This document shows positions 33,381 through 39,784 of a stretch of DNA of 46,079 bases, piece by piece (position 1 is the stretch's first letter; every line of letters starts with the position of its first letter). The translations under genes and the position numbers were made by a program. The stretch comes from an uncultured Clostridia bacterium. Lineage in GTDB: Bacteria; Bacillota; Clostridia; Oscillospirales; Acutalibacteraceae. The DNA lies in NCBI GenBank assembly GCA_947589415.1, contig CANQBP010000016.1, positions 1 to 46,079 on the forward strand, written 5' to 3'. Under the pieces are notes generated by a model. It saw nothing but the letters and a program-made list of their open reading frames with translations. It made no database searches and was not told the origin of the DNA.

Positions 33381-33405
33381 AAAAAAAGACAGACTTACGT
33401 CTGTC
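33381..33405 (-). terminator. Terminator at the end of the PAP2 gene
   Basis: On the minus strand GACAGAC pairs with GTCTGTC around a 4-base loop, followed by seven T residues. The stop codon of the PAP2 gene lies in this hairpin. Confidence 0.88.
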
Positions 33406-33940
33406 CGATTTTTTTCTCTGTATCAACGGAAAAAATAAATTTTTCAATTTTGTACGTTACTGCCGCATTTATAATTCCGAAAATCATTCCGAACAATACA
33501 TCTGTCGGAAAATGAACATACAAATAAAGCCTTGAAACTGCTATCGCAAGCGCAAGCAAATACATACAAACACCGAGCTTTTTATTATAGATAAAGAATA
33601 CCGTTGCCGTGCTGAATGCAAAAAAAGTATGACCCGACGGAAATGAAGCATCTGTTTCCGGCGGTACGAGAAGATTTACAATACCGTTAAGCTCATACGG
33701 ACGTATCCGGTTCACAATAGGTTTAATTATCAGATTGCAGATTATAAAACCGCATATAAGACTAAAAGTCAGTGTTTTTCCGAAATTTCGGTATTTTTTA
33801 GTTATAAGGGCAACTACCGCAATTATTATCCAAAGCACACCCGCCATACCAATCATTGAAATAAACGGCATAATATTATCAAGACAATTTGTTTTAAAAT
33901 TATTTTGAATATAATTCAGTATATAAAATTCCCAATCCAT
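33395..33940 (-). CDS. PAP2-family membrane phosphatase
   Basis: A 181-residue membrane phosphatase with about five hydrophobic segments. All three acid-phosphatase motifs are present: KPIVNRIRP, PSGH in ASFPSGHTFFA, and SRLYLYVHFPTD with the catalytic histidine. Relatives include BcrC-type undecaprenyl-pyrophosphate phosphatases, phosphatidylglycerophosphatases and phosphatidate phosphatases; the substrate cannot be decided here. GGGGG lies about 6 bases before the ATG; a GTG eight codons earlier lacks such a site. A terminator separates it from the GpsA-like gene. Confidence 0.87.
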   Translation of the reverse strand: MDWEFYILNYIQNNFKTNCLDNIMPFISMIGMAGVLWIIIAVVALITKKYRNFGKTLTFSLICGFIICNLIIKPIVNRIRPYELNGIVNLLVPPETDASFPSGHTFFAFSTATVFFIYNKKLGVCMYLLALAIAVSRLYLYVHFPTDVLFGMIFGIINAAVTYKIEKFIFSVDTEKKIGQT

Positions 33941-34220
33941 AAAAAACCCCCAAGACAAATACACATATTTCTGATTTGACGGGATATCCCGAAAGTAATT
34001 ATATCATATTATAAGCTCGAAAATTAACATATTTCATAAATATTAAAAATTTGGTGAATATTTATATAATTTTTCTCCTAAAATTTGCTTTCGGTAAGCT
34101 ATTTGACATATTTCCTCCGATAACCCCGCTTTATAACCGTGTAAATGTAAAATCTTTGCATTTTTGATATTTTATTTTACAATCCGACTACAAAAATCGT
34201 ACAAAAATTCATAAAAGCAG
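33941..34220. other. AT-rich divergent intergenic region
   Basis: No gene or strong structure was seen between the PAP2 gene and the helicase promoter. It contains A/T tracts that could hold the minus-strand PAP2 promoter, but no clear hexamer pair was identified. Confidence 0.4.
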
Positions 34221-34249: not shown

Positions 34250-34286
34250 ATTACTAACAACACCATAAGTTTAAGGAGTTCGGAAC

Positions 34287-37200
34287 ATGAGTAAGGGTAT
34301 TATTTTCTTTGATACGGAAGTCTGTATTGATGATAGAAAAATACACGATATAGGAGCTGTTTCAGAAAACGGCTCGACATTCCATTATTCATCTGTTTAT
34401 GATTTTATTGACTTTATTGAAAATGCGTCCGTACTTTGCGGACATAACATAGTACACCATGACCTTGTGTATATTGAAAAAGCATTAGGTAAGCCGATTG
34501 ACCTGCCTGCTATTGATACTCTTTATCTCTCCCCCCTCCTGTTTCCAAAAAGACCTTACCATTCTCTGATTAAAGATGATAAACTTCAATCAGATGACCT
34601 TAATAATCCGGTAAATGACAGTAAAAAGGCAATGCGGCTGTTTTATGATGAATTAAATGCCTATCACGACTTGCCCCGTGAACTTAAGGGTATTTTTCAG
34701 GCTCTTCTCTCCGAAACACCCGAGTTCAAAGGTTTCTTTTCAATTGTTGATGAGGTAGTATATAATGCCGATACCGATAAACTTATACAAGATTTTTTTA
34801 CGAATAAGATATGTACAAACGCAGATATCAGACCGTTTATAAATAACTATTCGTTGGAGCTTGCTTATGCTCTTGCGCTAATCAATACAGATGATCACCA
34901 AAGCATCACCCCGCCTTGGCTGTTACATAACTTCCCCCAAATAGAAAACATTATCCGACTCCTTAAAAATAAACCGTGTAAAACAGGGTGTCCCTACTGC
35001 AACAGTAAGTTAGACATACATAGTAAGCTAAAAGAAATTTTCGGTTATGACGAATTTAGAAAATACAACGGAGAACCGTTACAGGAGAAAGCAGCACAAG
35101 CCGCTGTTGACGGTAAATCTTTGTTAGCTGTATTTCCTACCGGCGGAGGTAAATCTATCACATTCCAACTTCCCGCATTGATTGCGGGACAAGCTGCCCA
35201 TGCCCTGACAATCGTCATATCCCCCTTACAATCACTAATGAAAGATCAGGTAGATAATCTCAACCATATAGGCATTAGTGAGGCAGTAACCATTAACGGG
35301 TTATTAGACCCCATAGAACGGGCTAATTCTATTGAGCGTTTGCTGAACGGTTCAGCAACACTTCTTTATATTTCTCCCGAACAGCTTCGGTCAAAAACAA
35401 TTGAAAAGATACTGACTTCACGAAATATTGCACGTTTTGTTATAGATGAGGCTCACTGCTTTTCTGCATGGGGGCAGGATTTTCGGGTAGATTATTTGTA
35501 TATCGGAGATTTTATAAGACAGCTGCAACAATTAAAGAAAAGTAGTGAACCTATACCTGTTTCCTGCTTTACCGCTACCGCAAAACAGAAGGTCATTACC
35601 GATATATGCGATTATTTTAAACGCAAATTAAATATCTCACTTGAGATTTTCGCATCTTCAGCTACTCGTGAAAATCTGCACTACACAGTTCTACATCAGG
35701 ATACTGACGAAGAAAAATATAATACCCTCCGAAATCTGATTGCCGAAAAGGATTGTCCCACTATCGTTTATGTTTCACGCACCAAAAGAACCAAAGAGCT
35801 TGCCGATAAATTGACAGCAGACGGCTTTCCGGCAAGACCTTTTAACGGAAAAATGGATCCCAATGACAAAATAGAAAATCAAGAAGCGTTTATCAGAAAT
35901 GAGGTCAAAGTCATTGTTGCTACATCGGCTTTCGGAATGGGTGTTGATAAAAAAGACGTCAAACTTGTAATACACTATGACATTTCAGATTCTCTCGAAA
36001 ACTATGTTCAGGAGGCAGGCAGGGCAGGACGTGACCCCCATATGCAGGCGGAATGTTTTGTACTGTATAATGACGACGATCTCGATAAACATTTTATTCT
36101 TCTAAATCAGACAAAACTCAGCATCAGTGAAATTCAACAGGTATGGAAAGCCGTCAAAACATTGACACGATTCAGACCTAATGTCTGCTGTTCCGCACTT
36201 GAGATAGCAAGACAGGCAGGTTGGGACGATTCGGTAAATGATATAGAAACCAGGGTAAGAACTGCTATATCTGCCCTTGAAAATGCCGGATATGTCAAAC
36301 GGGGACGGAATGTCCCACATGTATATGCGACAAGCATACAGGCAAAAAACATGAATGAAGCCTCTTTCCGTATAGATAACTCTCCGCTGTTTTCCGATAA
36401 ACAGCGTACAAATGCCAAACGAATCATAAAATCCCTGATTTCCAGCAGGAGTATCGCCAATGCCGATAACGATGAGGCCGAATCAAGAGTTGATTATCTT
36501 GCAGACACTCTCGGTCTTGAAAAATCAGAGGTTATATGTGCAATAAATCTGATGCGCCAAGATGGCCTGCTATCCGATACAAAGGATATGTCTGCCTACA
36601 TTTACGGTTCGGAAACAGAAAACAAGTCAAAACAAACTCTGGAAAGATTTGCAGAACTTGAAAAATTTCTGCTTGAACAAATAACCGAAAACGAATGTGA
36701 TTTTAACCTTAAAGAACTGAATGACAAGGCTTTGGACAGGCAAATAAAATCCAGTACAAAAAACATAAGAACACTGATTTATTACCTTACGGTCAAAAAC
36801 TATATTATTAAAAACGGCAGTGAGGGTTCCCATTCTTACCAATTATCCGCTGCCTTTCAAACTGACAAAATGCTTTCTAAATATCAGCGGCGTATCGATC
36901 TGTGCAATTTTATCCTCGAATACCTCTACCGAAATACCGAATCAACAAAAAGAAATAAAGATGAAAAACCGGTTCAATTCTCCGTGATTGAATTACTTAA
37001 TGAATATAAAAACAGCCTTACTTTGGAAAACGACAAAACTTATACTTCCGCTGCCGATGTGGAAGATGCCTTACTATACCTTTCTAAAACAGGTGCATTA
37101 AAGTTAGAGGGCGGTTTCCTTGTTCTTTATAACGGTATGGAAATCAAGCGTCTTATAACGGATAATAAAATCCGTTATAAAGTCGATGATTACCGTTTTC

Positions 37201-39083
37201 TTGACGAATTTTATAAACAAAAGATTCAACAGATACATATTGTGGGCGAATATGCTAACCTTATGGTTAAGGATTATCAGGCAGCATTACAGTTCGTTCA
37301 AGACTATTTTCAAATGGATTTCAAAAAGTTCATTTCAAAATATTTCAAGGGTGATCGTGCTAAGGAAATCAAAAATAATATTACGCCTAAAAAATATCAT
37401 CAACTATTTGGTGAATTATCCGATTCTCAATTAAAAATCATCAAAGACGCTGATTCAAAGTACATTGTTGCGGCAGCAGGCCCGGGCAGCGGAAAAACTC
37501 GTGTACTTGTACATAAATTAGCATCTTTACTGCTTTTGGAAGATGTAAAGCACGAACAACTTCTTATGCTGACATTTTCCCGTGCGGCTGCAACCGAATT
37601 TAAAAAGCGTTTAATAGGGCTAATCGGTAATGCGGCAAATTTCGTAGAGATAAAAACATTTCATTCCTATTGCTTCGATCTTTTAGGAAAAATAGGAAGC
37701 CTCGATGAAGTAGAAGATGTTGTGAAAAAAGCAGCGGAAATGATTGAAAACGGAGAGGTTGAACAGGGAAAAATAACAAAAAGCGTACTTGTCATAGATG
37801 AAGCACAAGATATGGACGAAAACGAATTCGGTCTTATCAAAGCTCTTATAAAACAAAATGATGATATGCGGGTCATTGCCGTTGGAGATGACGATCAGAA
37901 CATATATCAATTCAGAGGTTCAGACCCGAAATATATGCGTTCGCTTATAGATGAATTTGGTGCTGTTAAATACGAAATGAATGAAAATTTTCGCAGCGGG
38001 GCTGAGATAGTCGCTCTTTCAAATTTCTTTGCGAAGTCAATAAATAATCGTATGAAAACCGAGCCTATTGTTTCTGCAGCCGGCTGCCATGCAGTGGTTA
38101 CAATTGTTCGGCATCAAAGTAGATATATGTATGATGCTGTTGCAAATGATATTGTGAACCATACCATAACAGGAACTGCTTGTATTCTGACATCAACAAA
38201 TGATGAAGCACTGCAAATGCAGGGCTTACTTATAAAATACGGTATCAGGGCAAAACTGATACAGTCTATTGACAGATTGAGTTTACGTAATCTTGCAGAA
38301 ATCAGGCATCTTCTTAAAATAATCGAAGGTCAGCTCCGCTCACCTGTTATTTCCGATGAAACATGGCAATACGCAAAAAACAGAATTTCCTCTATTTATG
38401 CAAATTCAGGGTGTTTGGAGAATGTTCTCAATATGATGAAAGAGTTTCAGACCGTATTTCCTATAAAGTATTTTTCCGATTTCAAGGAATTTATCAATGA
38501 ATCAAATTATGATGATTTCTATACCCAAGAACAAAATACCATATACATATCTACTATACATAAATCCAAAGGAAGAGAGTTTGACAATGTGTATATTATA
38601 CTTTGTGATAATAACGCTACAACAGACGAAGAAAAAAGAAAACTTTATGTCGGTATGACAAGAGCAAAAAAGCAGCTGCATATTCACTGCAACACAAATC
38701 TTTTCTCGGACTGCACTATTCCGGGGGTCACTTTCCAAAGTGATAACAATGACTATCCGGAACCTGCGGAAATCACAATACAAATGGGATATAAAGATGT
38801 TTTTCTCAACTTCTTTTCCGGAAAGAAAAAGCTGATTTTTAGCCTTCATAGCGGTTCGGCCCTTGAAGTCGGAGAAAATCACTTATCTGCCGTCATTAAC
38901 GGTAAGAGTGTTCAAATTCTTCAATTCTCAAAGGCATTCAAAAACAAACTGGACGGTTTAAAAGCGAGAGGTTATCTCCCCTATTCCGCTGTCGTACAAT
39001 TTATTGTTGCATGGAAAAACGAAAATTATGATGAAGAACTGCCGATAGTGTTGGCGGATATATCACTGAAAAAACAAGCATAG
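34287..39083 (+). CDS. DEDD exonuclease - RecQ helicase - UvrD helicase fusion protein
   Basis: A single 1598-residue protein with three enzyme modules. Residues 1-125 are an RNase T-like exonuclease with D9 and E11 (FFDTEV), D59 (HHDLVY) and D111 (VNDSKKAMRLF). A cysteine cluster C231-x3-C235-x2-C238 follows. Residues about 255-760 are a RecQ-type SF2 helicase: Walker A PTGGGKS (284-290), DEAH (387-390) and QEAGRAGRD near 570-578. Residues about 1040-1510 are a UvrD-type SF1 helicase: AAAGPGSGKT near 1064, IDEAQD near 1170, GDDDQNIYQFRG near 1198, HKSKGREFDNVYI near 1425 and VGMTRAKKQ near 1455. All motifs look intact. AAGGAG lies 9 bases before the ATG. It is monocistronic. DNA repair or phage defence are both possible. 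Confidence 0.93.
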   Translation: MSKGIIFFDTEVCIDDRKIHDIGAVSENGSTFHYSSVYDFIDFIENASVLCGHNIVHHDLVYIEKALGKPIDLPAIDTLYLSPLLFPKRPYHSLIKDDKLQSDDLNNPVNDSKKAMRLFYDELNAYHDLPRELKGIFQALLSETPEFKGFFSIVDEVVYNADTDKLIQDFFTNKICTNADIRPFINNYSLELAYALALINTDDHQSITPPWLLHNFPQIENIIRLLKNKPCKTGCPYCNSKLDIHSKLKEIFGYDEFRKYNGEPLQEKAAQAAVDGKSLLAVFPTGGGKSITFQLPALIAGQAAHALTIVISPLQSLMKDQVDNLNHIGISEAVTINGLLDPIERANSIERLLNGSATLLYISPEQLRSKTIEKILTSRNIARFVIDEAHCFSAWGQDFRVDYLYIGDFIRQLQQLKKSSEPIPVSCFTATAKQKVITDICDYFKRKLNISLEIFASSATRENLHYTVLHQDTDEEKYNTLRNLIAEKDCPTIVYVSRTKRTKELADKLTADGFPARPFNGKMDPNDKIENQEAFIRNEVKVIVATSAFGMGVDKKDVKLVIHYDISDSLENYVQEAGRAGRDPHMQAECFVLYNDDDLDKHFILLNQTKLSISEIQQVWKAVKTLTRFRPNVCCSALEIARQAGWDDSVNDIETRVRTAISALENAGYVKRGRNVPHVYATSIQAKNMNEASFRIDNSPLFSDKQRTNAKRIIKSLISSRSIANADNDEAESRVDYLADTLGLEKSEVICAINLMRQDGLLSDTKDMSAYIYGSETENKSKQTLERFAELEKFLLEQITENECDFNLKELNDKALDRQIKSSTKNIRTLIYYLTVKNYIIKNGSEGSHSYQLSAAFQTDKMLSKYQRRIDLCNFILEYLYRNTESTKRNKDEKPVQFSVIELLNEYKNSLTLENDKTYTSAADVEDALLYLSKTGALKLEGGFLVLYNGMEIKRLITDNKIRYKVDDYRFLDEFYKQKIQQIHIVGEYANLMVKDYQAALQFVQDYFQMDFKKFISKYFKGDRAKEIKNNITPKKYHQLFGELSDSQLKIIKDADSKYIVAAAGPGSGKTRVLVHKLASLLLLEDVKHEQLLMLTFSRAAATEFKKRLIGLIGNAANFVEIKTFHSYCFDLLGKIGSLDEVEDVVKKAAEMIENGEVEQGKITKSVLVIDEAQDMDENEFGLIKALIKQNDDMRVIAVGDDDQNIYQFRGSDPKYMRSLIDEFGAVKYEMNENFRSGAEIVALSNFFAKSINNRMKTEPIVSAAGCHAVVTIVRHQSRYMYDAVANDIVNHTITGTACILTSTNDEALQMQGLLIKYGIRAKLIQSIDRLSLRNLAEIRHLLKIIEGQLRSPVISDETWQYAKNRISSIYANSGCLENVLNMMKEFQTVFPIKYFSDFKEFINESNYDDFYTQEQNTIYISTIHKSKGREFDNVYIILCDNNATTDEEKRKLYVGMTRAKKQLHIHCNTNLFSDCTIPGVTFQSDNNDYPEPAEITIQMGYKDVFLNFFSGKKKLIFSLHSGSALEVGENHLSAVINGKSVQILQFSKAFKNKLDGLKARGYLPYSAVVQFIVAWKNENYDEELPIVLADISLKKQA

Positions 39084-39097
39084 TGTAAAAGATGTAA

Positions 39098-39135
39098 ATG
39101 CCTCCGAAACTGACATCTCGGAGGCATAATTATTT
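39098..39135 (+). terminator. Terminator after the fusion helicase
   Basis: ATGCCTCCGA (39098-39107) pairs perfectly with TCGGAGGCAT (39118-39127), followed by AATTATTTTT. Confidence 0.85.
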
Positions 39136-39316: not shown

Positions 39317-39514
39317 TCATTCTTCTTTAGGTTCAAATCTGATACCGTTATCTCCGGGATAGGGCGTGTCGTGTTCCTCTCTATCAATTAGTTCACGAGG
39401 GATTCTTTCCGGAAAGGCATCACAGGTTAAATCTCTATGATTATGCTTACAATGATTACACATTACATCCCTTGCTCCCGGATCACAATACCATCTCTCA
39501 CTTTCGTATGCCAT
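39317..39514 (-). CDS. Small cysteine/histidine-rich protein (CDAFP...GDNGIRFEP type)
   Basis: A 65-residue soluble protein. MCNHCKHNHRDLTCDAFP in the middle and PYPGDNGIRFEP at the end form a pattern I recall from many uncharacterised bacterial small proteins. C-x2-C, two histidines and another cysteine suggest a zinc site. GGAGGAG lies about 9 bases before the ATG. It follows the 79-residue gene by 30 bases, so the two are probably one transcript from the strong promoter near 39860. Function is unknown. Confidence 0.72.
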   Translation of the reverse strand: MAYESERWYCDPGARDVMCNHCKHNHRDLTCDAFPERIPRELIDREEHDTPYPGDNGIRFEPKEE

Positions 39515-39544
39515 ATTTATCTCTCCTCCAATCTGTTAGTATTA

Positions 39545-39784
39545 TCAGTACCACATCAAAATTTCTTGAGTTGGCAAATTGTCTTTATTTTTTAATGACC
39601 GAAAATATTGCAGTGCGTGTGAAATATGGGAGCTGCACCACTCATATCCTTTAGGTAGTACATATTTCCTTAAAATATCATTTTTTATATCATAAATCAA
39701 TTCAAAAGGAAATTGACAATCCTCAACTTCCGCTGAACAGCGAATTTCAAAATCAGACTTAACTATATTGTTTAGTTTTATCAT
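39545..39784 (-). CDS. Small protein of unknown function with a degraded paralogue nearby
   Basis: A 79-residue protein I cannot assign. It opens with MIKLNNIVKSDFEIRC and ends with ALQYFRSLKNKDNLPTQEIL then MWY. The fragment at 39233-39307 shares this C-terminus, which shows that the gene belongs to a family with at least two local copies. A strong promoter lies upstream, while the ribosome site is weak. Polymorphic small genes in such arrays are often immunity or antidefence genes, but nothing in this protein proves that. Confidence 0.62.
   Translation of the reverse strand: MIKLNNIVKSDFEIRCSAEVEDCQFPFELIYDIKNDILRKYVLPKGYEWCSSHISHALQYFRSLKNKDNLPTQEILMWY

Follow-up and report, generated by a model that had tools for sequence, protein, structure and literature searches.

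Hna, a single-effector helicase-nuclease with anti-phage activity, combines an SF2 motor with a 3'-5' single-strand exonuclease in one chain; ATP restrains it and phage SSB releases it (PMC13381803). Hachiman comprises a sensor helicase and an effector nuclease and is stated to react to damaged DNA (PMC12278908). Gabija is proposed to target RecBCD-free linear DNA (PMC12407980). The window, i.e., the whole stretch of 46,079 nt analyzed in this work, belongs to a contig of an uncultured Clostridia bacterium (Acutalibacteraceae) and carries a gene whose reading frame of 1598 amino acids is open over the entire length given to it in the preliminary description. As judged from motifs, profile matches and a predicted structure, its product is shown to be one chain in which a DEDD-type exonuclease is joined to a RecQ motor and to a compact motor of the UvrD type, all with intact catalytic residues. 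By analogy, an exonuclease and two 3'-5' motors in a single chain would fit the class of Hna, Hachiman and Gabija.

The likeness to Hna consists in the single chain with an SF2 motor and an exonuclease, whereas Hna has 845 amino acids, two DinG-like SF2 domains and a C-terminal PD-(D/E)XK nuclease, and is without a UvrD motor (PMC13381803). With Gabija the fusion protein shares the pairing of a UvrD-type helicase with a nuclease, and GajB models gave the top scores of the UvrD half among the best 25 of 70 PADLOC matches; it differs in that the nuclease is of the DEDD type, resides in the same chain and is accompanied by a RecQ motor. An OLD nuclease GajA adjoining GajB was not recognized in the window, judged by ORF length and by reading: no GajA-sized ORF lies beside the fusion gene (the adjoining ORFs have 319, 189, 65, 79, 217 and 130 amino acids). 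Among the scanned neighbors of the homologous loci, GajA was seen in L060 only. The RecQ half had its best PADLOC matches, again among the best 25 of 70, in DpdF and PsyrT/RqlH, which share the RecQ core. With either of them only the motor is common (the PsyrT model was covered at positions 8-376 of 689); a full-length PsyrT with its phosphoribosyltransferase part, together with PsyrA, was not found, and no Pribosyltran match was obtained. The DpdF model (NF041063) reached 217.6 bits against a cut-off of 550.

WRN, too, carries an N-terminal DEDD exonuclease before its RecQ core, the same arrangement as in the fusion protein, which differs from WRN in having no detected RQC or HRDC, in the Asn in motif III and in the presence of the UvrD motor. 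RecBCD, AddAB and AdnAB are likewise helicase-nuclease machines with UvrD-type motors and were found among the structural matches of the UvrD half; their nuclease is of another fold, their motors are of SF1 only, and they consist of several subunits. PADLOC-DB 2.0.0 (2023) yielded matches to parts of the protein only, among the best 25 of 70, and a model for the whole fusion was found neither in Pfam nor among the best 25 of 37 NCBIfam matches. Plasmid relatives are annotated by NCBI as 'RecQ family ATP-dependent DNA helicase', a name that tells nothing of the exonuclease or of the second motor. No description of an exonuclease-RecQ-UvrD fusion was found in the literature searched, newer defence catalogues and closed papers lying outside its scope; the family may already bear a name elsewhere.

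Domain composition and active sites

Features of the gene and of its product are collected in Table 1. The same domain order was found in 45 full-length homologues of about 1585-1713 amino acids, originating from metagenome-assembled genomes (MAGs) and isolates, as well as in complete plasmid records. In all 46 sequences (the window protein and these homologues) the exonuclease acids are kept, as are the core residues of the two motors, so that the three-enzyme reading of the preliminary description is supported.

Table 1. The fusion gene, the domains of its product and the adjoining signals (positions in the window)
Feature	Position	Strand	Basis or remark
Ribosome-binding site AAGGAG, 8 nt 5' of the ATG of the fusion gene	34273..34278	+	read from sequence
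Fusion gene, 1598 aa: DEDD exonuclease - Cys4 - RecQ - linker - UvrD - C-terminal domain	34287..39083	+	open ORF, Pfam
DEDD-type exonuclease domain, residues 1-150	34287..34736	+	D9, E11, D59, D111; Asn106 at the motif III His position
Stretch with four invariant Cys (C176, C231, C235, C238)	34812..35000	+	putative zinc-type site
RecQ SF2 motor core, residues 240-609	35004..36113	+	
Linker, mostly helical, residues 610-1035	36114..37391	+	without Pfam RQC, RecQ-zinc or HRDC match
Compact UvrD/Rep SF1 motor core, residues 1036-1487	37392..38747	+	
C-terminal domain, residues 1488-1598	38748..39080	+	strand-rich in the model, without recognized family
Terminator-like hairpin, 10-bp stem, 14 nt 3' of the stop, then A/T-rich sequence with five T	39098..39127	+	z -3.89

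The N-terminal domain possesses what defines the DEDD exonuclease superfamily, namely four metal-binding acids in motifs I, II and III within a related sequence. D9, E11, D59 and D111 are identical in 46/46 sequences, as are H53, N54 and D77; none of the 45 full-length homologues has lost one of the acids, a loss which had been proposed as grounds for abandoning the three-enzyme reading, and the acids are also present in plasmid homologues at 29-36% identity. In Pfam the full-length protein had no exonuclease-domain match, and among 33 N-termini six matched DNA_pol_B_exo1 (best E 0.0014) and one RNase_T (E 0.034); Pfam alone was accordingly rejected as proof of an exonuclease. Among solved chains, a profile of 33 rows (A3) matched 2p1j, a PolC exonuclease, at E 0.0076, and entries that bear the name exodeoxyribonuclease III at E 0.013-0.092, values weak when taken alone. 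An hhalign comparison with RNase_T-family domains from related genomes, those of the PolC type among them, gave a probability of 82.9 and E 9e-6, the alignment to the PolC-type exonuclease taking in motifs I and II and not motif III. In the control with 20 windows of 150 residues, which were built from another alignment of the same protein, residues 1-150 scored 24.4 and the other 19 windows at most 3.4. In the predicted model of the N-terminus, strands and helices succeed one another in an RNase H-like manner; in a fold search with a 700-residue model against solved structures, the match lists were occupied by RecQ chains.

Motif III reads N-N-P-x-N-D, with Asn106 (45/46; Ser in 1/46) at the position of the DEDDh His. 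In the DEDDh and DEDDy subclasses (RNase T, DnaQ, WRN) motif III contains His or Tyr, neither of which is found here, so that of the 'RNase T-like exonuclease' named in the preliminary description the intact DEDD acids stand, but the strict likeness to RNase T does not. The Asn was also found in distant plasmid homologues and, since it is kept across phyla, is taken from these alignments to characterize the family rather than to reflect decay.

Four cysteines, C176, C231, C235 and C238, follow between the exonuclease and the RecQ core, outside the RecQ zinc region; they are identical in 46/46 sequences, which bears out the cysteine cluster reported earlier, and a distant Aliarcobacter copy is without most of the C231-C238 part. 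The two other RecQ-type proteins of the host have C-x2-C pairs after motif VI, which are absent from the fusion protein. The RecQ motor (PTGGGKS 284-290, DEAH 387-390, QEAGRAGRD 575-583) matches Pfam DEAD and Helicase_C above the cut-offs over residues 264-582, and its score with the NCBIfam recQ_fam model TIGR00614 (284.4 against a cut-off of 219.8) places it in the RecQ helicase family, as had been proposed from the motifs. The canonical RecQ equivalog TIGR01389 scored 320.6 against 640.2 bits, over profile positions 4-379 of 591. Every residue of PTGGGKS and DEAH is identical in 46/46 sequences, and Q575, E576, G578, R579, A580, G581 and R582 of motif VI in 43/43. RQC, RecQ-zinc and HRDC domains had no Pfam match at E 0.1 in the fusion protein, in agreement with the earlier remark that the zinc and HRDC regions were 'not obvious'.

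The assignment of the second motor to SF1 UvrD agrees with our data as well: Pfam UvrD-helicase and UvrD_C matched above the cut-offs over residues 1045-1468, as expected of the UvrD/Rep SF1 group, GPGSGKT and DEAQD lie at 1065-1071 and 1171-1175, and DEAQD, GDDDQN, K1070 and R1459 are identical in 46/46 sequences. The PcrA, UvrD and Rep equivalogs scored far below their cut-offs (110.3 vs 911.2, 108.1 vs 1144.45 and 105.7 vs 951.45 bits, respectively). For the C-terminal domain a profile search of the PDB gave nothing better than E 0.084; a HIRAN-like domain was considered and dropped, as 28 members had no HIRAN match.

The left neighbor of the fusion gene is divergent and 322 nt distant, and a strong hairpin lies directly 3' of the stop; because of these two features the gene is likely to be a single-gene transcription unit, which fits its earlier description as monocistronic. 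The terminator scan did not list this hairpin. Promoter-like matches in the region were near expectation (24 vs 18.8 expected, sd 4.4), and SOS-type boxes with up to two mismatches numbered 8 in the window vs 14.1 expected, none of them 5' of the fusion gene. The 'patch of decayed small genes' described next to it was not borne out, the ORFs at 39.3-41.5 kb being short but open; two small minus-strand ORFs at 39317-39784 (65 and 79 amino acids) are seemingly intact, and the first has a clear ribosome-binding site. Foreign base composition was considered and rejected, as the GC content of the gene is 38.1% vs 38.8% in the rest of the window.

Distribution and descent of the gene

In the species-level genome set 76 loci with a homologue were found, 45 of them full length (query start <=6 and end >=1570); the others are mostly cut by contig ends, and L025, L060, L066 and L075 are split. 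With the own genome counted, the fusion was present in 6/64 genomes of the genus (one partial), 4/300 of the family (three partial) and 16/398 of the phylum (several partial or with stops), counts which are lower bounds owing to gaps in MAGs. Of the same 64 genus genomes, 58 have an ABC transporter belonging to the right-flank family and 53 have gpsA. Universal, syntenic presence in the genus, which had been set out beforehand as an argument against a defence role, was thus not seen: the gene is accessory and patchily present. Besides the fusion, the host genome encodes two RecQ-type and two UvrD/PcrA-type helicases, so the fusion is not its sole representative of either type.

Plasmid records with a match somewhere numbered 547, and 16 of them cover at least 80% of the query at a single site; the carrier plasmids are large and spread over several phyla, and several have IS elements nearby. 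Clear relatives are held by 10 IMG/VR contigs, an eleventh having a short RecQ match alone, and of 83 phage records with a match not one reaches 80% coverage of the query. On two of the IMG/VR contigs an adjacent pair of large serine recombinases is located near the fusion gene (L090:6510-14845, checked with Pfam; L167:355-12521, by eye). A homologue of 31% identity (L174:201-10513) stands at the apparent left end of a Mu-like prophage with repressor-, Ner-, MuA- and MuB-like ORFs, all read by eye. Broken or split copies were observed in other Bacillota (L161:7531-11751, with transposase-like ORFs nearby as read by eye; L163:7486-9333; L165:7317-10704).

The smpB/tmRNA neighborhood is a known integration hotspot. 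In three loci of the phylum sample (L154, L156, L157) an smpB-like gene, recognized by eye, is 2.5-5.5 kb away from the fusion copy. In the relatives G059 and G063 a PAP2-like gene adjoins dnaX-ybaB-recR-smpB-like genes, and in the window (33395-33964) it adjoins the fusion gene. A clean empty site or insertion was not demonstrable: a dnaX query found nothing at E 1e-50 in the window's own assembly (G000), and in G059 the right flank is on other contigs.

In a tree built by a quick method, 7 changes were counted for Bacillota and 4 for Bacteroidota vs 14.8 and 13.7, respectively, in shuffles; being so far below the shuffles, these numbers indicate that descent, as read from the sequences, is partly vertical. 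A Desulfovibrio row and a planctomycete MAG row fall among the Bacillota rows. Horizontal transfer is likely, short of proven, since genome bins may contain stray contigs.

Genes next to the fusion gene

No defence gene was recognized among the immediate neighbors in the window, which were named by eye as gpsA-, PAP2- and ABC-transporter-like, and no conserved partner gene was found across the 75 loci compared (of 76; L024 was left out). The nearest thing to a partner is a Fic-family gene at position -1 in L029, L031, L032, L063 and L037, with a match to the SoFic model in L032 and L037; chance, shared descent and partnership are all possible.

At homologous loci, known defence genes recur. 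A GajA-GajB pair lies directly upstream of the fusion gene, at 112 nt, in L060, and PsyrT-PsyrA lies beside two copies, upstream in L072 and downstream in L159. In L162 the fusion is surrounded by Olokun and Shango genes (OloB, SngB, SngC) and an MkoA-like gene, with OloA in the sample tally (among the matches listed). Near other copies were found type II methyltransferases (L157), an AbiLi-like gene (L156), a PbeC/DndD-like gene (L159), a type III restriction enzyme (L057), PDC-S06 (L070), a NERD-helicase (L040), a type III Mod (L171), and HaeIII-type (L172) and CcrM-like (L173) methylases. On the IMG/VR contig L090 the fusion has as neighbors two serine recombinases, an AlwI nuclease and the D12 methylase that accompanies it, and on an Allochromatium plasmid a type I restriction-modification system is one gene away. 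A putative methylase of L169 had no PDB match. At L060:3902-14793 an ORF that resembles a serine recombinase by eye precedes GajA, GajB and the fusion gene, the last of which occupies two frames in this MAG; all four point the same way, possibly as a mobile two-system cassette.

The frequency of such neighbors was estimated on loci picked before their neighbors were viewed. This sample drew on 12 of the 15 other phylum-sample genomes with a match (G480, G578 and G648 were excluded for partial or contig-edge matches), one of the 12 having no flank (n=11). A known defence gene was found at at least 4 of the 11 loci (L156, L157, L159, L162) vs 0/20 control stretches (Fisher p 0.010 by locus), the controls being shorter (3.8-9.0 kb) and drawn from a single genus, and what counts as a 'known defence gene' having been fixed after the matches were seen. 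By protein, a hand count among the matches listed gave 11/100 vs 0/105 (p 0.0003), proteins within a locus not being independent. Loci were assigned from the best 25 of 110 matching families, with PDC-S01, HerA and DruM2 unplaced and uncounted; DndA/SspA matches were excluded from the count as probable housekeeping desulfurases, and the mad3 model, the sole one matching in the controls (6/105 proteins), was set aside as unspecific. At 7/11 loci no known system was assigned among the matches listed. In L160 the fusion stands at the end of an apparent glycine-cleavage operon (by eye). A comparison of near and far neighbors did not discriminate, PADLOC naming 33 families among the 105 near neighbors and just as many among the 105 far ones, and some near-neighbor matches (Fic; DprA-like ShosA) may be housekeeping.

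Possible function

Considering the patchy presence, the mobile carriage and the recurrent defence neighbors of the homologues, a defence role is supported, and we regard the fusion as rather probably a self-contained, horizontally moving anti-phage or anti-plasmid enzyme, a putative single-gene helicase-exonuclease. The defence role proposed in the preliminary description thus holds in part: it is derived from context and agrees with the neighbors of the homologues, but not with the immediate neighbors in the window, which are not defence genes. The broken copies, which fit an accessory gene of any role, count against it, and so does the fact that repair genes too travel on plasmids.

An accessory enzyme of DNA repair or recombination, i.e., a bacterial WRN analogue with an extra UvrD motor which would process the host's own stalled forks and ends, seems rather unlikely to us. 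RecQ, UvrD and DEDD exonucleases are indeed families of repair enzymes, WRN, with its DEDD exonuclease fused to RecQ, is among the RecQ matches of the fusion, the gene stands alone, and in L035 an SbcD-like gene (by eye) adjoins it; on the other hand, the fusion is missing from most of the relatives searched, is carried by plasmids and other mobile elements beside defence genes, and shares its host with further helicases of both types. Its occurrence on large plasmids of several phyla would also suit a helper in maintenance, transfer or replication of plasmids or integrative elements with no part in defence, all the more as the Aliarcobacter copy is beside ParA/ParB with a replication initiator nearby and a Bacteroides finegoldii copy is near ssb and ParA genes. 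Against such a helper, whose probability we consider low, speak the 75 loci compared, across which no replication or partition gene is conserved as its partner, the location of several copies on very long contigs (e.g., 652 kb and 3.6 Mb) and the known defence genes as recurrent neighbors. A misassembly or chance fusion of separate genes could be suspected in a MAG contig, some homologues being split, but the identical order in the 45 full-length homologues from MAGs and isolates and in complete plasmid records in effect refutes it and leaves it a negligible probability.

RecQ and UvrD motors walk 3'-5' on single-stranded DNA, and DEDD nucleases degrade from 3' ends in the 3'-5' direction. If the fusion is a defence enzyme, it would load on a 3' single-stranded tail, a free end or a fork of incoming or replicating foreign DNA, where the RecQ module would open the duplex and the exonuclease module would degrade the 3' strand, while the UvrD module, compact as in GajB, could serve as a second motor or as an end sensor and gate. 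RecB and RecD work on the opposite strands of a single blunt end, an arrangement closed to two motors with the same polarity; the modules of the fusion would hence follow each other along one strand or each take one arm of a branched molecule. Which of them unwinds and which senses is a guess.

We tentatively predict, with somewhat less than even confidence, that the fusion stands for a widespread and as yet undescribed family of single-protein defence systems, a one-chain counterpart of RecBCD and Gabija, in which an SF2 RecQ and an SF1 UvrD motor of the same polarity feed an Asn-type DEDD exonuclease, sensing foreign 3' ends or forks. If this is true, many 'RecQ family helicase' records would hide a three-enzyme, one-gene immune system, which could easily be cloned and tested. 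It would offer a simple system for asking how a helicase-nuclease distinguishes foreign DNA from that of its host, for what reason two motors of the same direction stay together, and whether a DEDD active site works with Asn replacing the usual His or Tyr.
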